DNA from: Verrucomicrobiota bacterium
GTDB taxonomy: Bacteria > Verrucomicrobiota > Verrucomicrobiia > Limisphaerales > JACQFS01
DNA length: 35,704 bases
NCBI GenBank assembly: GCA_016199935.1
Contig: JACQFS010000072.1
Span: 1-35,704, forward strand
Direction: 5' to 3'
Positions 11,724-35,704 of this stretch are shown here, piece after piece; the stretch's first letter is position 1; each line of letters opens with the position of its first letter. A program made the translations under genes and the position numbers. Under the pieces are notes generated by a model, which was not told the origin of the DNA, ran no database searches, and worked only from the letters and a program-made list of their open reading frames with translations.

Positions 11724-12176
11724 ATGACGACGACTGAAAACGGGGCAAAGCAGATAACCAACGGAAGTTCGATCGGAATTCTTGTCGTAGTAACAATCCT
11801 GACTTTTTTAGCGGCCATCGGAGCTAGTCTGTATTTTGGCTTCGCCTATGGCATGTCCGCTTCCGGCGGGACTTTGGTTCGTCCCGGGAAATACTTGTGG
11901 CTGGCAATCCCATGCATCTTAATTTTTGCGGTTTCGATTCGCCGGTTTGGACCGCTCGCCGCTCTCATCGCACTCTTGTCCGTATCTAGTGTTTTTAGTT
12001 TTGCATCGTTCAAGATGTGGAAAACAGAACGCGACCCGAGGGACGCAAGAGAATGGGGAACCGTGTTTCGTGTAATCGTCGTCACCGCCGGTGGGGCAAT
12101 CTTGGTCTCAACTGTCCCAATCCGCTCTACCCCAAAAAACCGTAGCCGGACGACTCACGCCGCCCGGCTTCGCTGA
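11724..12176 (+). CDS. Small integral membrane protein, unknown function
   Basis: The 150-aa protein has four predicted hydrophobic segments: GILVVVTILTFLAAIGASLY, YLWLAIPCILIFAVSI, PLAALIALLSVSSVFSF and VFRVIVVTAGGAILVSTV. A short Lys/Arg-rich tail follows. It starts 8 nt after the thyA stop and is probably cotranscribed. Its base composition is unlike its neighbours (28 of 60 G+C at 11881-11940, versus 39 of 60 at 10201-10260), which suggests later acquisition. The 3' end overlaps the convergent Spy-like gene by 22 nt. I do not recognise a family. Confidence 0.65.
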   Translation: MTTTENGAKQITNGSSIGILVVVTILTFLAAIGASLYFGFAYGMSASGGTLVRPGKYLWLAIPCILIFAVSIRRFGPLAALIALLSVSSVFSFASFKMWKTERDPRDAREWGTVFRVIVVTAGGAILVSTVPIRSTPKNRSRTTHAARLR

Positions 12177-12739
12177 ACCTTTTCCCATTTCTCGAACTGC
12201 TCCTTGTTCAGGATTTCCTTCATCTTCGCGCTCATCGTCTCCTGCGCCTTCTGCATCTTCTCACGGCGTTCGTCCGGCGAGGCATCGCGCAGTCCCTGCA
12301 TGGCCTGACCCTGCTCCTGCATCAGGGCCTGGACCTTGGGCTTCTGCTCATCGGAGAGGCCGAGTTCCTCCATGATCTTCTGCATCCGCTCGCGCATGGA
12401 GCCGGCGCCACCCGCACCGGGAGCGCCGCCGGGACCGGCCGCGCGCGCCTTTTCCCATTTCTCGAACTGTTCCTTGGTGAGCAGTTCCTTCATCTTCGCG
12501 GTCATCTTGTCACGGCGTTCTTCGGCCGGAACCTCGCGCAGCTCCTGCATCGCAGCGCGGAACTTTTCCTTCTGCTCGTCGGAGAGGCCGAGGTCCTCCA
12601 TGGCCTTCTGCATGCCGGCGCGGCCGGGACCGCCGTCGGGGCCTTTGGCTTTGCCTTTGGCTTCGGCGTCGGCGGCGCGGGCCAGCGGGGTGAGAGTGAG
12701 CGTGAGCGCGGTGAGGAGGAGCAACGGTGTGGTTTTCAT
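12155..12739 (-). CDS. Spy/CpxP-like periplasmic protein with internal duplication
   Basis: The 194-aa protein has a signal peptide (MKTTPLLLLTALTLTLTPLA, then RAADA). The mature part consists of two related helical repeats. Each begins with LGLSDEQK and ends with a KMKE(L/I)L(T/N)KEQFEKWEK block (about residues 50-99 and 123-188), separated by a Gly/Pro/Ala linker around GGAPGAGGAGS. The L-x-x-x-Q pattern and charged helices resemble Spy/CpxP and related metal/stress periplasmic helical proteins; strong relatives are common in Planctomycetes and Verrucomicrobiota. Role inferred: periplasmic chaperone or stress sensor. It is transcribed divergently from the pseudopilin gene across a 183-nt gap in which I see no clear operator. 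Confidence 0.75.
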   Translation of the reverse strand: MKTTPLLLLTALTLTLTPLARAADAEAKGKAKGPDGGPGRAGMQKAMEDLGLSDEQKEKFRAAMQELREVPAEERRDKMTAKMKELLTKEQFEKWEKARAAGPGGAPGAGGAGSMRERMQKIMEELGLSDEQKPKVQALMQEQGQAMQGLRDASPDERREKMQKAQETMSAKMKEILNKEQFEKWEKVQRSRAA

Positions 12740-13672: not shown

Positions 13673-13981
13673 ATGAAAAAACTCCTGCTCTCCGCCAGCC
13701 TTTTGCTCGCGCTCCTCGGATCCGCGGCGCGCGCCGCCGAGGAAGCCGCCCCCGCCCGTGCGTGGCACGCCACCACGTTGTGGGAGGCCATCGCCTACAT
13801 GATTGTGTTCGCCGCGTTCGGCCTCGCCGCGGCGATCGTCGGCTACAAGGTCTTCGACAAATGCACGCCCGGCGATCTGAACAAGGAGATCCTCGAGCAC
13901 CGGAACATCGCCGCCGCCATCATCGGCGCCGCGGTGATCCTCGGCGTGTGCATCATCATCGCCGCCGCGATGATCGGTTGA
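13673..13981 (+). CDS. DUF350 (YjfL-like) membrane protein
   Basis: The 102-aa protein has a signal-peptide-like N-terminus (MKKLLLSASLLLALLGSAAR, about residues 1-21). Two further membrane helices follow, around IAYMIVFAAFGLAAAIVGYK and ILEHRNIAAAIIGAAVILGV, the core of DUF350 with the conserved N-x-A-A-A-I-I-G element. The family is represented by E. coli YjfL and is often encoded next to glutathionylspermidine-synthase-like ATP-grasp proteins, as here. It acts in the inner membrane; function unproven. It is the first gene of a tight plus-strand cassette (25 nt to the lipoprotein gene, then a 1-nt overlap to the ATP-grasp gene). Confidence 0.85.
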   Translation: MKKLLLSASLLLALLGSAARAAEEAAPARAWHATTLWEAIAYMIVFAAFGLAAAIVGYKVFDKCTPGDLNKEILEHRNIAAAIIGAAVILGVCIIIAAAMIG

Positions 13982-14006
13982 ACGGGCTCGCGCCCGCCGC
14001 CCTCGG

Positions 14007-14369
14007 ATGAAACGCTCCCGGCGCATCCGGCTCGTGCTCCTCGGCGGCCTCGCCTCCGGGACGTTTGCGAGTTGCTCGCCCCCGCCCTCGATCTCCACCG
14101 AGAACGTCTATCCCAACAATCACCACGTCCCCGGCGTCGGCTACTATCACGCGCCGTTTCGCGCGTGGTATCCGCTTCCCTACAACCAGTTCGACGCGGC
14201 GCAGCAACGCTACTACCACGGCGGCCAGTGGGACGCCGCGCCGCACGAGAGCATCACCAACCTTTCCTCGCCCACGCCCGAAGCCGTCGCGCGCGCCGAG
14301 ATCGTGCGCACCGACGTGAAGCGCAGCGGCTTCGGCAGTTCGTCGCGCGGCTTTTCCACCTCGTCCTGA
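14007..14369 (+). CDS. Small lipoprotein, YgiB/DUF1190-like C-terminus
   Basis: The 120-aa protein has a basic N-terminus, a short hydrophobic stretch (LVLLGGLASGTFASC) and a Cys at residue 23 that fits a lipobox, although Phe at -3 is slightly unusual. The mature part is rich in Tyr, His and Pro (NHHVPGVGYYHAPFRAWYPL) and ends SGFGSSSRGFSTSS. A similar Gly/Ser-rich 'GFGSS' tail is characteristic of the YgiB/YjfM (DUF1190) proteins that accompany YgiC/YjfC. It is therefore probably the YgiB-type partner, exported and lipid-anchored; the assignment rests on position and tail only. The TGA stop shares a base with the next ATG (TGATG). Confidence 0.7.
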   Translation: MKRSRRIRLVLLGGLASGTFASCSPPPSISTENVYPNNHHVPGVGYYHAPFRAWYPLPYNQFDAAQQRYYHGGQWDAAPHESITNLSSPTPEAVARAEIVRTDVKRSGFGSSSRGFSTSS

Positions 14370-15490
14370 TGCAACGCCACCGCTGCCATCCCCGCCCCGA
14401 CTGGAAGGAAAAGGTCGAGTCCATCGGCCTCACGTATCACTCGCACGAGCACGGCCCCTACTGGGACGAGTCCGCGTGTTACGAACTCGACGCGCGCGAA
14501 GTCAGCGCGCTCGAATCCGCCGCCAACACGCTGCACCACCTCTGCATCGCTGCCGCCGAGGCCGTCATCGAGCGGAAATGGTGGGACCGCCTTGGCATTC
14601 CGTCCGCGGCGATTCCCGCGATCACGCGCTCGTGGGAGCGCGATGACTTCAGCCTTTTCGGCCGGTTTGATTTCGCTTTCGACGGCCACACGCCGCCGAA
14701 GCTGCTTGAATACAATGCCGACACGCCGACCGCGCTCGTCGAGGCCGCCGTCGCGCAATGGTTCTGGCTCCAGGACACGCGGCCGGACGCCGACCAGTTC
14801 AACTCGATCCACGAGCGGCTCATCGAGGCGTGGCGCCGTTTCGCGGGCACGACCATTCACTTCAGCGGCGTGAAGGAGCACGCTGAGGACGAGCAGACGA
14901 TTTTGTATCTGCGGGACACTTGCACGCAGGCCGGCGTCGAGGCGCTCGCCGTCCACATCGAGGACCTCGGCTGGGATGCGCGGCAGAAATGTTTCGTGGA
15001 CCTCGACCTCCGGCGCGTCACGCGCTGCTTCAAACTTTATCCGTGGGAATGGCTCTGGCACGAGGAGTTCGCGCCGCACCTCGCGCGCGAGCCGGTGCAG
15101 TTCATCGAGCCAACGTGGAAAATGCTGTTGAGCAACAAGGGCCTGCTGCCGGTGCTGTGGGAACTTTTTCCTGGTCATCCAAATCTCCTGCCCGCCTTCG
15201 ACTCGGCCGCGCCGCTCGGCGGGCATTTCATCCGCAAACCCAAACTCAGCCGCGAGGGCAGCAACGTCGCGCTCGTCGAGTCCGGCATCGTGGTCGAGGA
15301 GACCGGCGGCGATTACGGCGCGGAAGGCCACGTGTTTCAGGCGCTCGCGCCGGTGCCGGACTTCGATGGCCACCGGCCTGTCTGCGGCGTGTGGGTCGTG
15401 GATCACGAGGCCGCCGGCCTCGGCATCCGCGAGGACACGCGCCGCATCACCGGCAACCTCAGCCGCTTCGTCCCGCATTTTTTCCGTTGA
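14369..15490 (+). CDS. YgiC/YjfC-type glutathionylspermidine synthase-like ATP-grasp protein
   Basis: The 373-aa protein matches the synthetase half of glutathionylspermidine synthase: WERDDFSLFGRFDFAFDG, the family signature LLEYNADTPTALVEAA, FIEPTWKMLLSNKGLLPVLW and the ATP-grasp loop RKPKLSREGSNVALVESG. It lacks the N-terminal amidase of E. coli Gss, as do YgiC and YjfC. Expected chemistry is ATP-dependent amide ligation of a peptide carboxylate to an amine (polyamine or peptide), but the YgiC/YjfC substrates are not established. ATG at 14369 overlaps the lipoprotein stop, indicating translational coupling. The neighbouring DUF350 and DUF4178 genes reinforce the assignment. Confidence 0.9.
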   Translation: MQRHRCHPRPDWKEKVESIGLTYHSHEHGPYWDESACYELDAREVSALESAANTLHHLCIAAAEAVIERKWWDRLGIPSAAIPAITRSWERDDFSLFGRFDFAFDGHTPPKLLEYNADTPTALVEAAVAQWFWLQDTRPDADQFNSIHERLIEAWRRFAGTTIHFSGVKEHAEDEQTILYLRDTCTQAGVEALAVHIEDLGWDARQKCFVDLDLRRVTRCFKLYPWEWLWHEEFAPHLAREPVQFIEPTWKMLLSNKGLLPVLWELFPGHPNLLPAFDSAAPLGGHFIRKPKLSREGSNVALVESGIVVEETGGDYGAEGHVFQALAPVPDFDGHRPVCGVWVVDHEAAGLGIREDTRRITGNLSRFVPHFFR

Positions 15491-15505
15491 ACACAAACGC
15501 GCGCG

Positions 15506-16696
15506 ATGGACTTTCAAAATCCAACTCCACTGAAGCTCGGCGCGACCGGCACGCTCGCCGGCCGGCGGTTCCGCGTCGTCGGGCGTGTGGTGATGGGCGT
15601 GGAAGAGGACGGCGAAAGTTATTTCTGGAACGAGTTCAACGTCGTGGACGACGGCGGCCACTCCGCCACGCTCGTCTTTGAAACCACCGAGAACGGCGTC
15701 GAGTGGCGGCTGTTCACTTTGTTCGAGCCGACGAACCCGATCAGCGTGCAGGAGGCCGCGACCAAGCGAGTGGGCGACAGCGTGAACCTCGACGGCCGGC
15801 CGTGCAGCGTCACGCTCGTGAGCCAGTCGTGTGTGGACTTCATCGAGGGGCAGGCACCCGAAGGCGTCGAGCTGGGCGACGTGGCGAATTACTTCAACGC
15901 CGGTCCCGGCAACCACCAGATCGTCGTGAGCTGGACCGGCAACGAGGTCGAGTGCTACCGCGGCATTGACCTTCCGGCTGGCGTGGTGAGCAACGCCTTC
16001 GGTCTGCCGAAGCCCGTCCCCAGCGTGACGGCGATCCCGACGCGGCCAAACAACTCGTCGGGAATTTCCGGCACCGTCACGTCGGTGGCGATGTTCGCGC
16101 TCTACGTCTGGTTTTCCATCGGTGATTTTTCCTGCTCCGGCAATCGCGCGCCGCGCCGCGCCGCCGCCATCGTGAAGCCGCCCACGCCCGTGTCGCCATT
16201 GTTCGTCGGCGCGGAAGGAATGCTGGCCGGAAAAATCTGGCGCATCCGCAAACACACGGTCGTCGAGATCACCGCGCCGCGCGCGCGCTTCGACCGTCAC
16301 GAATACCAACTCGCCGCCGCCGATGGCTCGACCGCCGTGCTCCTGCATTGGCTCACACCCAACGAACGCGACTGGCACCTTCTCCTGCGCGCGCAAGCCG
16401 AGCCCGAGCTCACGCCGCAACAGGCCGCCACGCGCAAGCCCGGCGATGCGCTCACCGTGGACGGCCGCACCGCGCGCATCGCGGACCTCTATGTTTCACG
16501 CGTCCAGTTCGCCGAGGACACCACCACGCTGCTCGAGGAAAATGGCGTCGTCGCGTTTCACTTCCTGGCGCGCGCGGGAAAGGAAATCGTGGTGGTCGAC
16601 TGGACCGAACGCGGAATCCAGTTCCTCCGCGGCCGCTCCGTCCGCAAATCCGAAGTCGAGGCGGCCTTCCTCCGGACGCCGGCGAAGACGAAGTGA
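15506..16696 (+). CDS. Protein with two DUF4178 domains and a central membrane segment
   Basis: The 396-aa protein has two similar halves: GATGTLAGRRFRVVGRVVMG onward (about 12-155) and GAEGMLAGKIWRIRKHTVVE onward (about 233-390). Each has the short beta-strand order of DUF4178, including the W-x-L-F/L strand and a later QEAATKRVGD or QQAATRKPGD helix. A hydrophobic stretch VTSVAMFALYVWFSI (about 192-206) lies between them, so one domain may lie on each side of a membrane, or the segment may anchor the protein. DUF4178 genes are recurrently found with DUF350 and polyamine-synthase-like genes. It starts 15 nt after the YgiC-like gene and ends the cassette. Function unknown. Confidence 0.8.
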   Translation: MDFQNPTPLKLGATGTLAGRRFRVVGRVVMGVEEDGESYFWNEFNVVDDGGHSATLVFETTENGVEWRLFTLFEPTNPISVQEAATKRVGDSVNLDGRPCSVTLVSQSCVDFIEGQAPEGVELGDVANYFNAGPGNHQIVVSWTGNEVECYRGIDLPAGVVSNAFGLPKPVPSVTAIPTRPNNSSGISGTVTSVAMFALYVWFSIGDFSCSGNRAPRRAAAIVKPPTPVSPLFVGAEGMLAGKIWRIRKHTVVEITAPRARFDRHEYQLAAADGSTAVLLHWLTPNERDWHLLLRAQAEPELTPQQAATRKPGDALTVDGRTARIADLYVSRVQFAEDTTTLLEENGVVAFHFLARAGKEIVVVDWTERGIQFLRGRSVRKSEVEAAFLRTPAKTK

Positions 16697-16743: not shown

Positions 16744-17514
16744 GTGTTTCGTCCGTGCATTGACCTCCACGAAGGCCAGGTGAAGCAGATCGTCGGCGGC
16801 TCGCTCTCCGACGGCGGCACCGGCCTGCGCACCAACTTCGTCTCGGAAAAATCCGCCGCGTGGTTCGCCGAACTCTATCGGCGCGACGGACTCACGGGCG
16901 GCCACGTCATCCAGCTCGGCCCCGGCAACGAAGCCGCCGCGCGCGCCGCCCTCGCCGCGCATCCCGGCGGCCTGCACCTCGGCGGCGGCGTGAATCTGGA
17001 AAATGCAAAAGGCTGGCTCGAGGCCGGCGCGTCGCACGTCATCGTCACGTCGTGGGTTTTCCGCGATGGCCGGCTCGATGCGGAGCGGCTCAAATCACTC
17101 GTTGCCGCCATCGGCCGGGAGCGGCTCGTGCTCGACCTGAGCTGCCGCGTGCGCGACGGGAAATATTTTGTCGTCACGGATCGGTGGCAGAAATTCACAG
17201 AACTCGAAGTGACCGCGCCGACGCTCGCCGGACTCGCCGCGCAGTGCGCGGAGTTTCTCATCCACGCCGTGGACGTGGAGGGACTGTGCCGTGGCGTGGA
17301 TTTGAAACTGGTCGAGCTGCTCGGCGAAGCCTCGCCGATTCCTTCGACCTACGCCGGCGGTGCGCGGTCGCTTGAAGATTTGGAACTCGTCACGCGCGCC
17401 GGTCGTGGCCGCGTGGACCTCACCATCGGCTCCGCGCTCGACATCTTCGGCGGCACCGGCGTGCGCTACGCGGATTGCGTGGCGTTCAATCGGCGGGCGG
17501 CTTCTGCTCCTTGA
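16744..17514 (+). CDS. hisA: Eukaryotic-type HisA (ProFAR isomerase)
   Basis: The 256-aa TIM-barrel protein begins with a GTG start and FRPCIDLHEGQVKQIVGGSL, with the N-terminal catalytic Asp7 in CIDLHEGQVKQ. HLGGGVNLENA and ASHVIVTSWVF, HAVDVEGLCRG (Asp177, probable second catalytic acid) and STYAGGARSLEDLELV with GRVDLTIGSALDIFGG (phosphate loop) follow. This pattern matches the fungal/plant HIS6 type rather than the usual bacterial HisA. The reaction is ProFAR to PRFAR in histidine biosynthesis (cytoplasm). No other his genes lie in the window. Start at GTG 16744 is supported by family alignment; the gene lies 47 nt after the DUF4178 stop and may be its own unit. Confidence 0.9.
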   Translation: MFRPCIDLHEGQVKQIVGGSLSDGGTGLRTNFVSEKSAAWFAELYRRDGLTGGHVIQLGPGNEAAARAALAAHPGGLHLGGGVNLENAKGWLEAGASHVIVTSWVFRDGRLDAERLKSLVAAIGRERLVLDLSCRVRDGKYFVVTDRWQKFTELEVTAPTLAGLAAQCAEFLIHAVDVEGLCRGVDLKLVELLGEASPIPSTYAGGARSLEDLELVTRAGRGRVDLTIGSALDIFGGTGVRYADCVAFNRRAASAP

Positions 17515-32722: not shown

Positions 32723-35704
32723 TCATGAACCGACAGCATGGGCGTCGTGCAAACCCGGTGGTGCGAGTCGCGGCAGCCACCGCCGAATCCGGGCGCGTTC
32801 GCGGCAGCCCACCCACCCGATGAGAAAGATGACGCTCACGATGGTGGCCGGCTCGGGCACGGGGACGATCTCGCCGGAACTCAGCATCGTGGCGGCATAG
32901 GTGCCCGTCAGACCATTGGGATCGACGAACCGAATCAGACTGAGCTCGCCACTGGTGAGGCCGCTGGCGTCCGTGCCAAAATAAATCTGATCGGTCCCGC
33001 CGCCGCCGCCGCCCGGACCGCTGCCGGTCCAATCCACGATGTTCAGCACCCCGCCGGTCCAGGTGGCGGAGGAACTTTTTCCGAAATGCAAGATGCTGGC
33101 GCCGTTCCCCATCTCAAGAGTCGAGGTGGCCGACAACGTGAGCGTCCCGATCGTGTCGCTCAACCCGCCCGTGTCGAGAGTGCCGCCGGCCAGATTCAGG
33201 TTGGCCTGGCCGTTGATGCGCTGGGCCGCGCCCAGGAGCAGCGTCCCCTGATTGATGACCACCGTGCTGCCGCCGATCTGCTGGTCCACCTGCACGGTGC
33301 CGGCGCCGGTCTTGGTCAGCGTGCCGAGGCCGGTCAAGGGAGTGGAACCGTTGATGAAATTTGTCCCGGCGGAAATGTTCATCGTGATGTCCGGCGAGTG
33401 GGTCAGCGTCGTGCCGTCGGATTCCACGTCGCCGCTGACGATCAATTTTCCGTGGCTGGCGGCGAGACCGCCATCCAACTGTCCGCCGCTCAAGGTCGCC
33501 TGGCCGGCAATCGTCAGCGTCCGCGCGGTCAACGGGCTGCCGCCGGCGAGGACGAAAGTTCCGCCCGTGATGTCGAGCGTGCTGGTTCCGGTGCCGGTCA
33601 GCGTTTCGTCTTTCGCCAGTTCCACGCGGCCGCCTTTGACCACGAGACCATTCCAGTTCGCGAGATCGTTCGCCGCGGCGCCGAGCGAATACACAGTGTT
33701 CGTCGTTCCGCCGGTCACGTCGAAGCCCAGCCGCAGGTTGCTCGCCGACGAGGGCGCCTTGCTGAACGTGTTCGTCGAGTTCTCGTTCGCATACGCGATG
33801 GTCAGCGTGCCGTCGGTGCCGCTCAAACCCTGCACGCGCGCGGTCGTCAGCAAAGCGTCCACGACCGCCGCGGATCCGGCCACGGTCAGGCCGCCGAGGC
33901 CGGCGCCGTTGATGGTGAGGGTGGAACTGGAATTGAAAGTCGTGTTGCTGCCGAGCGACAATGTGGAGTCCGAGCCGGTGATGCCCTGGCCGATGAAATT
34001 GCGCGCCGAGGTGCTGCCGATGAGTTTGGTTCCGGCTCCCGTCGTGGCCAAGGTCGCCCCCGCCGCCAGCGTGATGTCCTGCGCCGCCGAGGAATCCAAC
34101 CGGACTTCATCCGCGCTGCTCGCGGCGTTCAGCGTGAGCGTGCCGCTGTCAATGTTGATCGGCCCGCCAAATTGCAAATAGCCGCCCGCGCCGTCGCCGC
34201 CCGCGTCAGTGAGGAACGCGTTGCCCGTCGTCGTCAGGAGCACCGTGCCCGTGAACTTCGTCGGGCTGCCGCTGGCGTCAATGCGTCTGATCGTGCCGTC
34301 ATCAATGGTGAGGGAAGTGACGGCGGCATTGTTGGCGGAATCATGCCAGTTGGCCTGAAGTTCCGCCCCGCCATTGATCGTGAGATCGCCGGTGCCCAGC
34401 GCCCGCCGCTCGGACATCTTCAACGTGCCGGCGTCCACGGTGGTCCCGCCGGTGTAGGTGTTGATCCCGGTGAACTCCAGCAGGCCGAGGTCGCCCTTGT
34501 CCACGCCGCCCGCGCCCGAGATCACCGCGCTCACCTGCATATCGGTCGCCGCCGTGCCCTCGGCGATGTTGAAAATGCTCACGTTCGCCAGCGCCAATTT
34601 GCCGGTGATGGTCGCGGTGGTGGCGCTGGCGTTGCCCGTCACGTCCCCGGCCACCGTCAGCGTGCCGGTGCCGGTGATGGCATTGCCGCCGCCCACGGTC
34701 AGGTTGTTGAATTGATTGTCGCGGTTGTTCAAGTCGAGTCGGCCGTCGCTGGCGATCGTCACATTGGCCGTGGTCGGGATGAAGTTGCTGTTTTGCAATT
34801 GCACCACGGCGGAGTTGGCCGCGCCGATGTCATCGCCGATGATCAGATTGCCGCCCAAGGCGAGATTGCCCACGGTGACATTCAGGGAAAGTGTTCCGTC
34901 GTTCACCGTCGTGTCGCCGACGTAGCTGTTGGCGGTGCCGGTGAAACTCAGCGTCCCCGTGCCGTTCTTGGTGAAACCGCCGCTGCCCGAGATCGAGGAA
35001 TTGACCGTGACGTTGCCGTTGCCCACCGTCGTCAACGTGCCGCCGGTGAGGTTGATGGTGTTGAGAAAAGTCGTTCCGCTGCCGAGCGTCAGCGGGTGGG
35101 TGTCCGCGCCGACCGTCGCGTCCGCGCTGATCACCAGATTGCCTTCCCAGCGGTTGGTGCCGCTCACGCTGCGCAACGCGCCGTTCCCAGCCGGGCCGGC
35201 TCCGCTCAAAGTCAGGGACTCGCCCACCACCACGAGGCCGCCGGAAAATTCCACGGCACCACCGGAGTTGACCACCGTGCCGTTGTTGGTCGCGCCGAGC
35301 GCCGCGGCCGATTGGAGAGTCAGCACGCCCGCGTTCACGGTGGTCAGACCGGTGTAAGCGTTGGTCCGCGTCAACGTGACGGAGTTGGTGGTGGACTTGG
35401 TGAGCGCGCCGCTGCCGTTGAGGATGGCGGAGATGGAACCGCTCTCGACGTTGTAGGCGCTGGCCGTCAGCACGCCGGTGGTGCCGGTGATGGAGCCGCC
35501 GTTCTTCAACGTCACCACGCCCACAGTGTCGCTGTTGGTGCCCAAGCTGAAGACGGCGGTCGCGCCGTCCACCGCCACCGCGCCGGAATCCGCGAGGACG
35601 TTGTTCGCGCCCAGCGCGAGCGTGCCGGCGCTGACGGTGCTGCCGCCGGAGTAAGAGTTCGCGCCGCTGAGGGTGACGGTGTTCGTCGTGGACTTGGTGA
35701 GTGC
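32723..35704 (-). CDS. PATR-repeat surface protein with PEP-CTERM signal (5' end beyond window)
   Basis: The frame is open from the window edge to a TGA at 32723 (993 codons visible). It consists of autotransporter-associated beta-strand (PATR) repeats such as NAYTGLTTVNAGVLTL and NTYTGGTTVDAGTLKM, with strings of Gly, Asn, Thr and Ser. Near the C-terminus is the exosortase sorting signal: VPEPATIVSVIFLIGW (PEP box and hydrophobic helix), then a basic cluster CRERARIRR. A further tail of about 18 residues (WLPRLAPPGLHDAHAVGS) follows, which is unusual. The product is a secreted, surface-anchored adhesin or matrix protein. The true N-terminus, with an expected signal peptide, lies outside. Confidence 0.9.
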   Translation of the reverse strand, partial: ALTKSTTNTVTLSGANSYSGGSTVSAGTLALGANNVLADSGAVAVDGATAVFSLGTNSDTVGVVTLKNGGSITGTTGVLTASAYNVESGSISAILNGSGALTKSTTNSVTLTRTNAYTGLTTVNAGVLTLQSAAALGATNNGTVVNSGGAVEFSGGLVVVGESLTLSGAGPAGNGALRSVSGTNRWEGNLVISADATVGADTHPLTLGSGTTFLNTINLTGGTLTTVGNGNVTVNSSISGSGGFTKNGTGTLSFTGTANSYVGDTTVNDGTLSLNVTVGNLALGGNLIIGDDIGAANSAVVQLQNSNFIPTTANVTIASDGRLDLNNRDNQFNNLTVGGGNAITGTGTLTVAGDVTGNASATTATITGKLALANVSIFNIAEGTAATDMQVSAVISGAGGVDKGDLGLLEFTGINTYTGGTTVDAGTLKMSERRALGTGDLTINGGAELQANWHDSANNAAVTSLTIDDGTIRRIDASGSPTKFTGTVLLTTTGNAFLTDAGGDGAGGYLQFGGPINIDSGTLTLNAASSADEVRLDSSAAQDITLAAGATLATTGAGTKLIGSTSARNFIGQGITGSDSTLSLGSNTTFNSSSTLTINGAGLGGLTVAGSAAVVDALLTTARVQGLSGTDGTLTIAYANENSTNTFSKAPSSASNLRLGFDVTGGTTNTVYSLGAAANDLANWNGLVVKGGRVELAKDETLTGTGTSTLDITGGTFVLAGGSPLTARTLTIAGQATLSGGQLDGGLAASHGKLIVSGDVESDGTTLTHSPDITMNISAGTNFINGSTPLTGLGTLTKTGAGTVQVDQQIGGSTVVINQGTLLLGAAQRINGQANLNLAGGTLDTGGLSDTIGTLTLSATSTLEMGNGASILHFGKSSSATWTGGVLNIVDWTGSGPGGGGGGTDQIYFGTDASGLTSGELSLIRFVDPNGLTGTYAATMLSSGEIVPVPEPATIVSVIFLIGWVGCRERARIRRWLPRLAPPGLHDAHAVGS

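Follow-up and report, generated by a model that had tools for sequence, protein, structure and literature searches.

The 35,704-nucleotide contig JACQFS010000072.1 of a Verrucomicrobiota bacterium (order Limisphaerales, assembly GCA_016199935.1), referred to in the following as the window, carries a compact cassette of four genes built around a YgiC-type ATP-grasp ligase. The lipoprotein encoded directly upstream of this ligase ends in a short tag, R-S-G-F-G followed by Ser-rich residues. Comparison with other ligase loci revealed that in 108 of 119, drawn from many phyla, the open reading frame (ORF) immediately preceding the ligase gene ends in R-[G/S]-G-F-G plus 7–25 Gly/Ser-rich residues. 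This pairing of tail and ligase is near-universal, specific to stand-alone ligases and statistically very strong. Since the same tag stands beside almost every YgiC-type enzyme, the C-terminal end of the tagged neighbour protein is probably the natural target of these enzymes. We propose, with a probability of roughly 0.6, that both proteins form an enzyme-substrate pair with membrane accessories, in which the ligase would join a polyamine to the C-terminus of the tail before export.

Organization of the Cassette

The source assembly comprises 5.03 Mb in 260 contigs and is 97.7% complete. Gene coordinates were obtained with a gene caller based on a codon model (coding potential). Gene calling and Pfam searches confirmed the four tightly packed genes of a preliminary description of this DNA, with spacings of 25, −1 and 15 nucleotides (nt). 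The features of the cassette, in window positions, are the following.

13673–13981, + strand: DUF350 membrane protein of half size (PF03994, E = 4.3e-12; gene call; homologues 5' of the ligase in most relatives)
14007–14369, + strand: small Tyr/His-rich lipoprotein of 120 amino acids (aa), proposed ligase substrate (gene call; homologues in relatives)
14322–14366, + strand: C-terminal tag, R-S-G-F-G (14322–14336), then SSSRGFSTSS to the C-terminus (motif survey, alignment, hold-out)
14369–15490, + strand: YgiC/YjfC-type ATP-grasp ligase of 373 aa, a stand-alone synthetase domain (PF03738, PDB matches, active-site alignment)
15506–16696, + strand: optional accessory protein with two DUF4178 stretches and a hydrophobic helix in its centre (Pfam, alignment, model)

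The ligase matched PF03738 (GSP_synth) with E = 3.7e-145, residues 12–371 covering positions 1–370 of the 371 of the profile. This was the only Pfam family found in the protein. An amidase domain or N-terminal CHAP domain is absent, and so is a signal peptide. The best PDB matches were E. coli YjfC (7uk6–7uk8/7uka) and YgiC (E = 1e-91/1e-90), and the identity to these stand-alone GSP_synth ligases is 41–44%. The missing amidase half had been singled out in the preliminary description. It is indeed missing, but this is normal, because E. coli ygiC and yjfC are likewise stand-alone genes without it. Both E. coli enzymes are annotated in RefSeq as peptide–spermidine ligases, a name that reportedly goes back to work of Pederick and colleagues from 2023.

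Residues R99, D101, E114, N116, E173, D174, K257, K290, R295 and R354 of the window ligase align with active-site residues of the bifunctional E. coli enzyme GspSA, which have ATP, Mg and catalytic roles. GspSA residues R316, D318, E330, N332, K498, K533, R538 and R598 are identical in the window ligase, and the acidic pair E391/E392 is kept with E392 as D. The title of the 2023 paper by Pederick et al., cited in PMC12568646 and PMC10948618, likewise names YgiC and YjfC as peptide–spermidine ligases.

The lipoprotein contains a lipobox-like FASC near residue 22. A Pfam search with this protein matched no family up to E = 1, and it does not belong to PF06693 (DUF1190). Its predicted model is of low confidence over the whole length (mean predicted local distance difference test, pLDDT, 49.6) and thus says only that no fold was found. 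Residues 106–110 are R-S-G-F-G, which places the protein among those with an RGG[FY]G-type C-terminal tail. The YgiB-like tail noticed earlier was verified by comparison of the window tail VKRSGFGSSSRGFSTSS with those of E. coli YgiB VTRGGFGESVAK, containing RGGFG, and E. coli YjfM VSRGGYGRSSSARGHWGG, containing RGGYG.

Conservation of the Tail beside Stand-Alone Ligases

All 119 loci (80 named, 25 at order level, 11 at class level, two from E. coli, and the window) were read frame by frame. A strict motif was defined as R[GS]G[FY]G within the last 40 residues. In the 80 named loci it occurred in 47 of 70 called genes at position −1 and in one of 800 other genes, namely the second of two tandem tail proteins at locus L097. 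At this locus (L097:6178-6966) the two consecutive tail proteins, TSRGGFGSSAASHSASS and TSRGGFGSHGGSFGS, lie upstream of a single ligase. Among the 11 loci outside the 108, several have degenerate tails (RGGFT, RGGLG, RGTFG) or lie on truncated contigs.

Among 107 non-redundant tails the Arg was found in 100, Gly or Ser at the next position in 105 and the Phe in 106. A median of 10 residues (range 7–25) follows the motif. The final residue is Ser in 69, Gly in 27, Glu in six, Thr in three and Ala in two tails, and thus Ser or Gly in 96 of 107. Internal acidic residues are rare in this first set, with 10 Asp/Glu of 1089 residues versus 7.1% in the bodies; 100 of the 107 tails, and the tail in the window, contain none at all. 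When 68 tail proteins were aligned, only the GFG glycines formed invariant columns, while Arg and Phe were conserved to more than 90%; DUF1190 was matched by only 11 of the 68. The earlier suggestion that the lipoprotein tail may be a ligation target is therefore supported: judged by these comparisons, the tail emerges as the only conserved feature of the protein beside nearly all YgiC-type ligases.

The tail is found on proteins of different kinds. At L077:2559-3755 an RRGGFG tail ends a hydrophobic membrane protein of 372–399 aa, which is not a small lipoprotein, and at L091 and L134 the tail is carried by 294-aa proteins of another kind. The bodies are not all proven unrelated, because many tail proteins share an N-terminal KRS-hydrophobic signal. 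This signal motif, KRSxxIxLVLxG, is conserved in tail proteins, for example at window positions 14007–14060; in Bradyrhizobium tail proteins it is even preceded by an N-terminal extension. Possibly the motif provides a second feature for recognition.

Controls and Hold-Out Set

Shuffling of the last 40 residues gave a mean of 0.5 matches versus 99 of 107 observed. For the hold-out set, ligases from three other phyla were collected by whole-genome search, and the strict motif was scored within 1.5 kb on the same strand. It was present for 40 of 53 ligases on the same strand versus none of 53 on the opposite strand. Of the 13 misses, ten are directly preceded by a variant tail (RGGLG, RAGFG, REGFG, QGGFG, HGGFG, RSGGFG or RGGFF), which leaves three true misses. 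Of 36 hold-out tails, 32 end in GG.

Bifunctional enzymes of the GspSA type, recognized as open frames of more than 600 aa, had no strict same-strand tail nearby in any of 11 cases. L280, a stand-alone paralogue from the same set, does have a tail protein. An origin of the tail by chance or low complexity was ruled out by neighbouring genes, opposite strand, shuffles and bifunctional ligases taken together. Selection at the DNA level, for example for a ribosome-binding site of the ligase gene, was ruled out as well. The motif is encoded by diverse synonymous codons, so that the peptide and not the DNA is under selection, and the distance from the tail to the ligase start ranges from an overlap to more than 400 nt.

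Genome-wide, the DNA pattern of the motif was barely more frequent than in the backward control (151 versus 142). A scan for this pattern found no second tail in 30 fetched loci of the genome; a few substrates encoded in trans elsewhere are possible.

A Distant Ligase Clade with a GG[FY]G Tail

Seven Verrucomicrobiota loci (L056–L059 and L153–L155) matched PF03738 only distantly (E about 1e-11 to 1e-25). They contain triads in the order membrane protein, ligase and a protein of 214–317 aa with a GG[FY]G tail such as RSSAGGFGSVIPEPSSGG. This tail was found on the 3' neighbour in all seven. The membrane protein is a DUF350 protein in L056 (E = 1.6e-7); the match in L153 is weak (E = 0.008) and under the curated cut-off. 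Among 21 Planctomycetota and other weak matches nine have the same tail, with none on the opposite strand; the remaining ones may be other ATP-grasp families. Distant triads were also observed in Planctomycetota loci L220–L228 and L236. In this clade, the Verrucomicrobiota loci included, the final protein has a tail of the type GG[FY]G...PEPSSGG.

The tail protein lies upstream of the ligase in the main clade and downstream in the distant one, and the bodies are unrelated. Thus, there appear to be two deeply diverged forms of the unit of DUF350, GspS-like ligase and GGFG tail.

Gene Neighbourhoods and Probable Membrane Partners

Within the order, 29 of 146 genomes contain PF03738, compared with only 15 of 387 sampled across the phylum. 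Eleven of 25 order-level loci show the gene order of the window, with DUF350, tail protein, ligase and DUF4178. With seven more loci, DUF350 upstream, tail and ligase stand together in 18 of the 25; DUF350 is found on either side of the ligase in 19, one of them having it downstream. The cassette had been called a reduced version of the E. coli operons, a view that these recurrences contradict. It is the ordinary Verrucomicrobiota form of the known ygiBC/yjfLMC operon type. Tail protein and ligase are the near-invariant pair in the comparison of neighbourhoods, whereas DUF350 and DUF4178 are optional and split off in some relatives. A break-up of the four genes in relatives had been named in the preliminary description as a refuting outcome, and it is thus observed in part.

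The window DUF350 protein has a signal-like N-terminus followed by two hydrophobic segments. It covers profile positions 2–66 of 133, that is one half-repeat versus two in E. coli YjfL. In other phyla the usual companion is a full-length DUF350 (of 75 sampled neighbours, including those from Verrucomicrobiota, 27 matched DUF350). DUF350 is probably the membrane partner of the ligase system.

DUF4178 matched two stretches of the fourth protein (E = 1e-12, Pfam). The predicted model shows two domains rich in beta structure, with a short helix at residues 191–205 in the centre (pLDDT 74.8; predicted template modelling score, pTM, 0.48), and a comparison of this model with the PDB gave nothing significant (best E 0.015). 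A DUF4178 gene lies 3' of the ligase in 12 of the 25 order-level loci. It is an optional, dispensable accessory.

In other phyla, genes for S-adenosylmethionine (AdoMet) decarboxylase and spermidine synthase occasionally adjoin the ligase. An operon of Burkholderiales/betaproteobacteria has the order AdoMet decarboxylase, spermidine synthase, tail protein, ligase and DUF350 (L093:5381-8556 and L102:5290-8567); the members of the L093 operon were checked singly by Pfam. This operon links the synthesis of polyamines to the pair of tail protein and ligase.

The PspA_IM30 profile had no match in the cassette neighbourhood or anywhere in the window genome, which confirms the absence of a PspA-like gene noted before. 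The proposed link to membrane-stress handling was carried over from related PspA operons (PMC11237479), and a PspA membrane-stress version was rejected for this genome.

Three other genes of the window were noted. A HisA-like gene (His_biosynth, GTG start, 16744–17514, + strand) begins 47 nt 3' of the DUF4178 gene on the same strand. On the minus strand, 12155–12739 encodes a small secreted protein with two similar LTXXQ/Metal_resist-like halves, and 32723–35704 is a large ORF with autotransporter-like Gly/Asn/Thr repeats that runs past the contig end.

Proposed Reaction and Alternatives

The window ligase lacks a signal peptide, and PMC4858940 lists YgiC as a protein of the cytoplasm, so that a lipoprotein substrate must be met before export. 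According to our proposal, the cytoplasmic ligase would recognize R-[G/S]-G-F-G near the C-terminus of the newly made lipoprotein. ATP would then activate the C-terminal carboxylate of the tail, and the activated carboxylate would be joined, still prior to export, to an amine, for which spermidine or some other polyamine is the likeliest candidate. This would be the chemistry of glutathionylspermidine synthase with a ribosomally made protein tail replacing glutathione, and once in the envelope, the lipoprotein would have an end that is flexible and positively charged. The C-terminus is usually the sole carboxylate of the tail in the first set, which is consistent with a C-terminal amide as in glutathionylspermidine.

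From the sequence comparisons we consider it highly probable that the ligase recognizes the tail. Ligation of a polyamine at the tail C-terminus appears reasonably probable. Spermidine as the amine in the window organism is rated lower, because the genome shows only weak Spermine_synth matches and no nspC above the cut-off. The data show the gene structure, the family and active-site residues of the ligase and the association of the tail with stand-alone ligases; tail recognition, the C-terminal acceptor, the identity of the amine, the timing and the role in the envelope are what we infer from them.

Several observations weigh against the proposed reaction. GspSA D610, a reported spermidine contact, aligns to R366 of the window ligase. 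As judged from Spermine_synth and nspC, the genome has no clear route to spermidine: spermidine synthase, which the preliminary description suggested looking for elsewhere, is represented by weak Spermine_synth matches alone, and a search for nspC gave nothing above the cut-off. Ligases without a tail occur at L031, L032, L104, L260, L264 and L265. Hold-out tails are less strongly depleted of acidic residues (15 of 531 residues acidic, 22 of 36 tails acid-free), as enterobacterial YgiB tails do carry a few of them after the motif. An exported substrate of a cytoplasmic enzyme demands modification before export, and the modification itself is a proposal from sequence.

Some of these points would fit a tail ligated to a different amine, which could be a polyamine other than spermidine, an aminopropylated compound or an amine belonging to the cell envelope. 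The lack of canonical spermidine synthesis genes in the searches for Spermine_synth and nspC and the non-conserved D610 speak for it, and Ravi et al. 2024 suggest aminopropylation of other substrates (PMC11237479). With the E391/E392-equivalent acidic pair kept and speD and speE present in some operons, however, this remains a minority possibility.

It is unlikely that the RxGFG tail serves for docking only. In that case it would tether the ligase to the lipoprotein or to a complex in the membrane, and ligation would act on a free peptide or a metabolite, for example a peptide of peptidoglycan or one resembling glutathione. The reported peptide–spermidine ligase activity of YgiC and YjfC would agree with such a substrate, and a spacing of 7 to 25 residues between motif and C-terminus is tolerable for a pure docking site. 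However, docking would need neither the constrained C-terminus, with Ser or Gly in nearly all tails of the first set and GG in most of the hold-out, nor tails almost free of acidic residues.

A localization or assembly signal read by other machinery, with a merely co-regulated ligase gene, is improbable. Gly/Ser-rich tails with aromatic residues could mediate assembly, and the N-terminal KRS signal is common to tail proteins. Against this, both of the deeply split ligase clades have the motif next to them, on proteins that are unrelated and lie upstream in one clade and downstream in the other. The motif is missing next to bifunctional enzymes and from the other genes of the neighbourhoods, and it shows no clear genome-wide excess at the DNA level.

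ATP-grasp enzymes perform side-chain macrocyclization in graspetides, and the tails are rich in Ser, Thr and His, but such a cyclization is very improbable here, since 100 of the 107 first-set tails, like the acid-free window tail, offer no internal Asp/Glu as acid partner.

Relation to Known Systems and Significance

As in E. coli ygiBC and yjfLMC, a lipoprotein-like protein that ends in a tail of the RGG[FY]G type is encoded ahead of a stand-alone GSP_synth ligase, and DUF350 is present as in the yjf cluster, which supports the common core proposed earlier. In contrast to the E. coli DUF1190 lipoproteins, the window lipoprotein has a body that is not DUF1190, and its DUF350 partner is half-size. 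The E. coli clusters lack DUF4178, and the DUF2491, DUF2170 and PspA genes of the yjf cluster are all absent from the window cassette. With bifunctional GspSA the window ligase shares synthetase fold and catalytic residues. It differs in lacking the amidase; GspSA uses free glutathione and has no adjoining tail protein. RimK and tubulin tyrosine ligase are ATP-grasp enzymes acting on C-terminal tails of proteins, and PEARLs are aminoacyl-tRNA-dependent C-terminal ligases. All three are work-alikes that extend encoded tails at the C-terminus, with different families and donors.

In Ravi et al. 2024 (PMC11237479), PspA-linked operons with an ATP-grasp ligase, DUF350 and a DUF1190 protein, called metal-chelating, are described, and DUF4178 occurs in another operon group. 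The window cassette resembles these polyamine/ATP-grasp operons in its ATP-grasp peptide ligase, YjfL/DUF350 protein, lipoprotein and, for one variant, DUF4178, but is without PspA and the CesT/Tir dyad. The passages of that paper on the lipoprotein do not mention the conserved tail. No description of the tail was found in the accessible literature, although an earlier mention elsewhere is possible, nor was a description of the natural substrate of YgiC/YjfC found there. Thus, the pairing of tail and ligase appears to be undescribed, and the cassette as such represents one variant within an operon type already known.

The RxGFG tail points to the natural substrate of YgiC/YjfC and reduces this question to a simple peptide assay. 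The chances seem evenly balanced that this is a widespread, previously unrecognized modification, in which an encoded R-G-G-F-G plus Gly/Ser tag is capped with a polyamine by a paired GspS-like ligase, with two diverged DUF350-partnered versions and recruitment of unrelated substrates. If the proposal is true, envelope proteins of many phyla would be modified at the C-terminus by a polyamine. The association of DUF350, DUF1190 and stand-alone GspS-like ligases would then be explained, and so would the occasional presence of genes for polyamine synthesis in their clusters.

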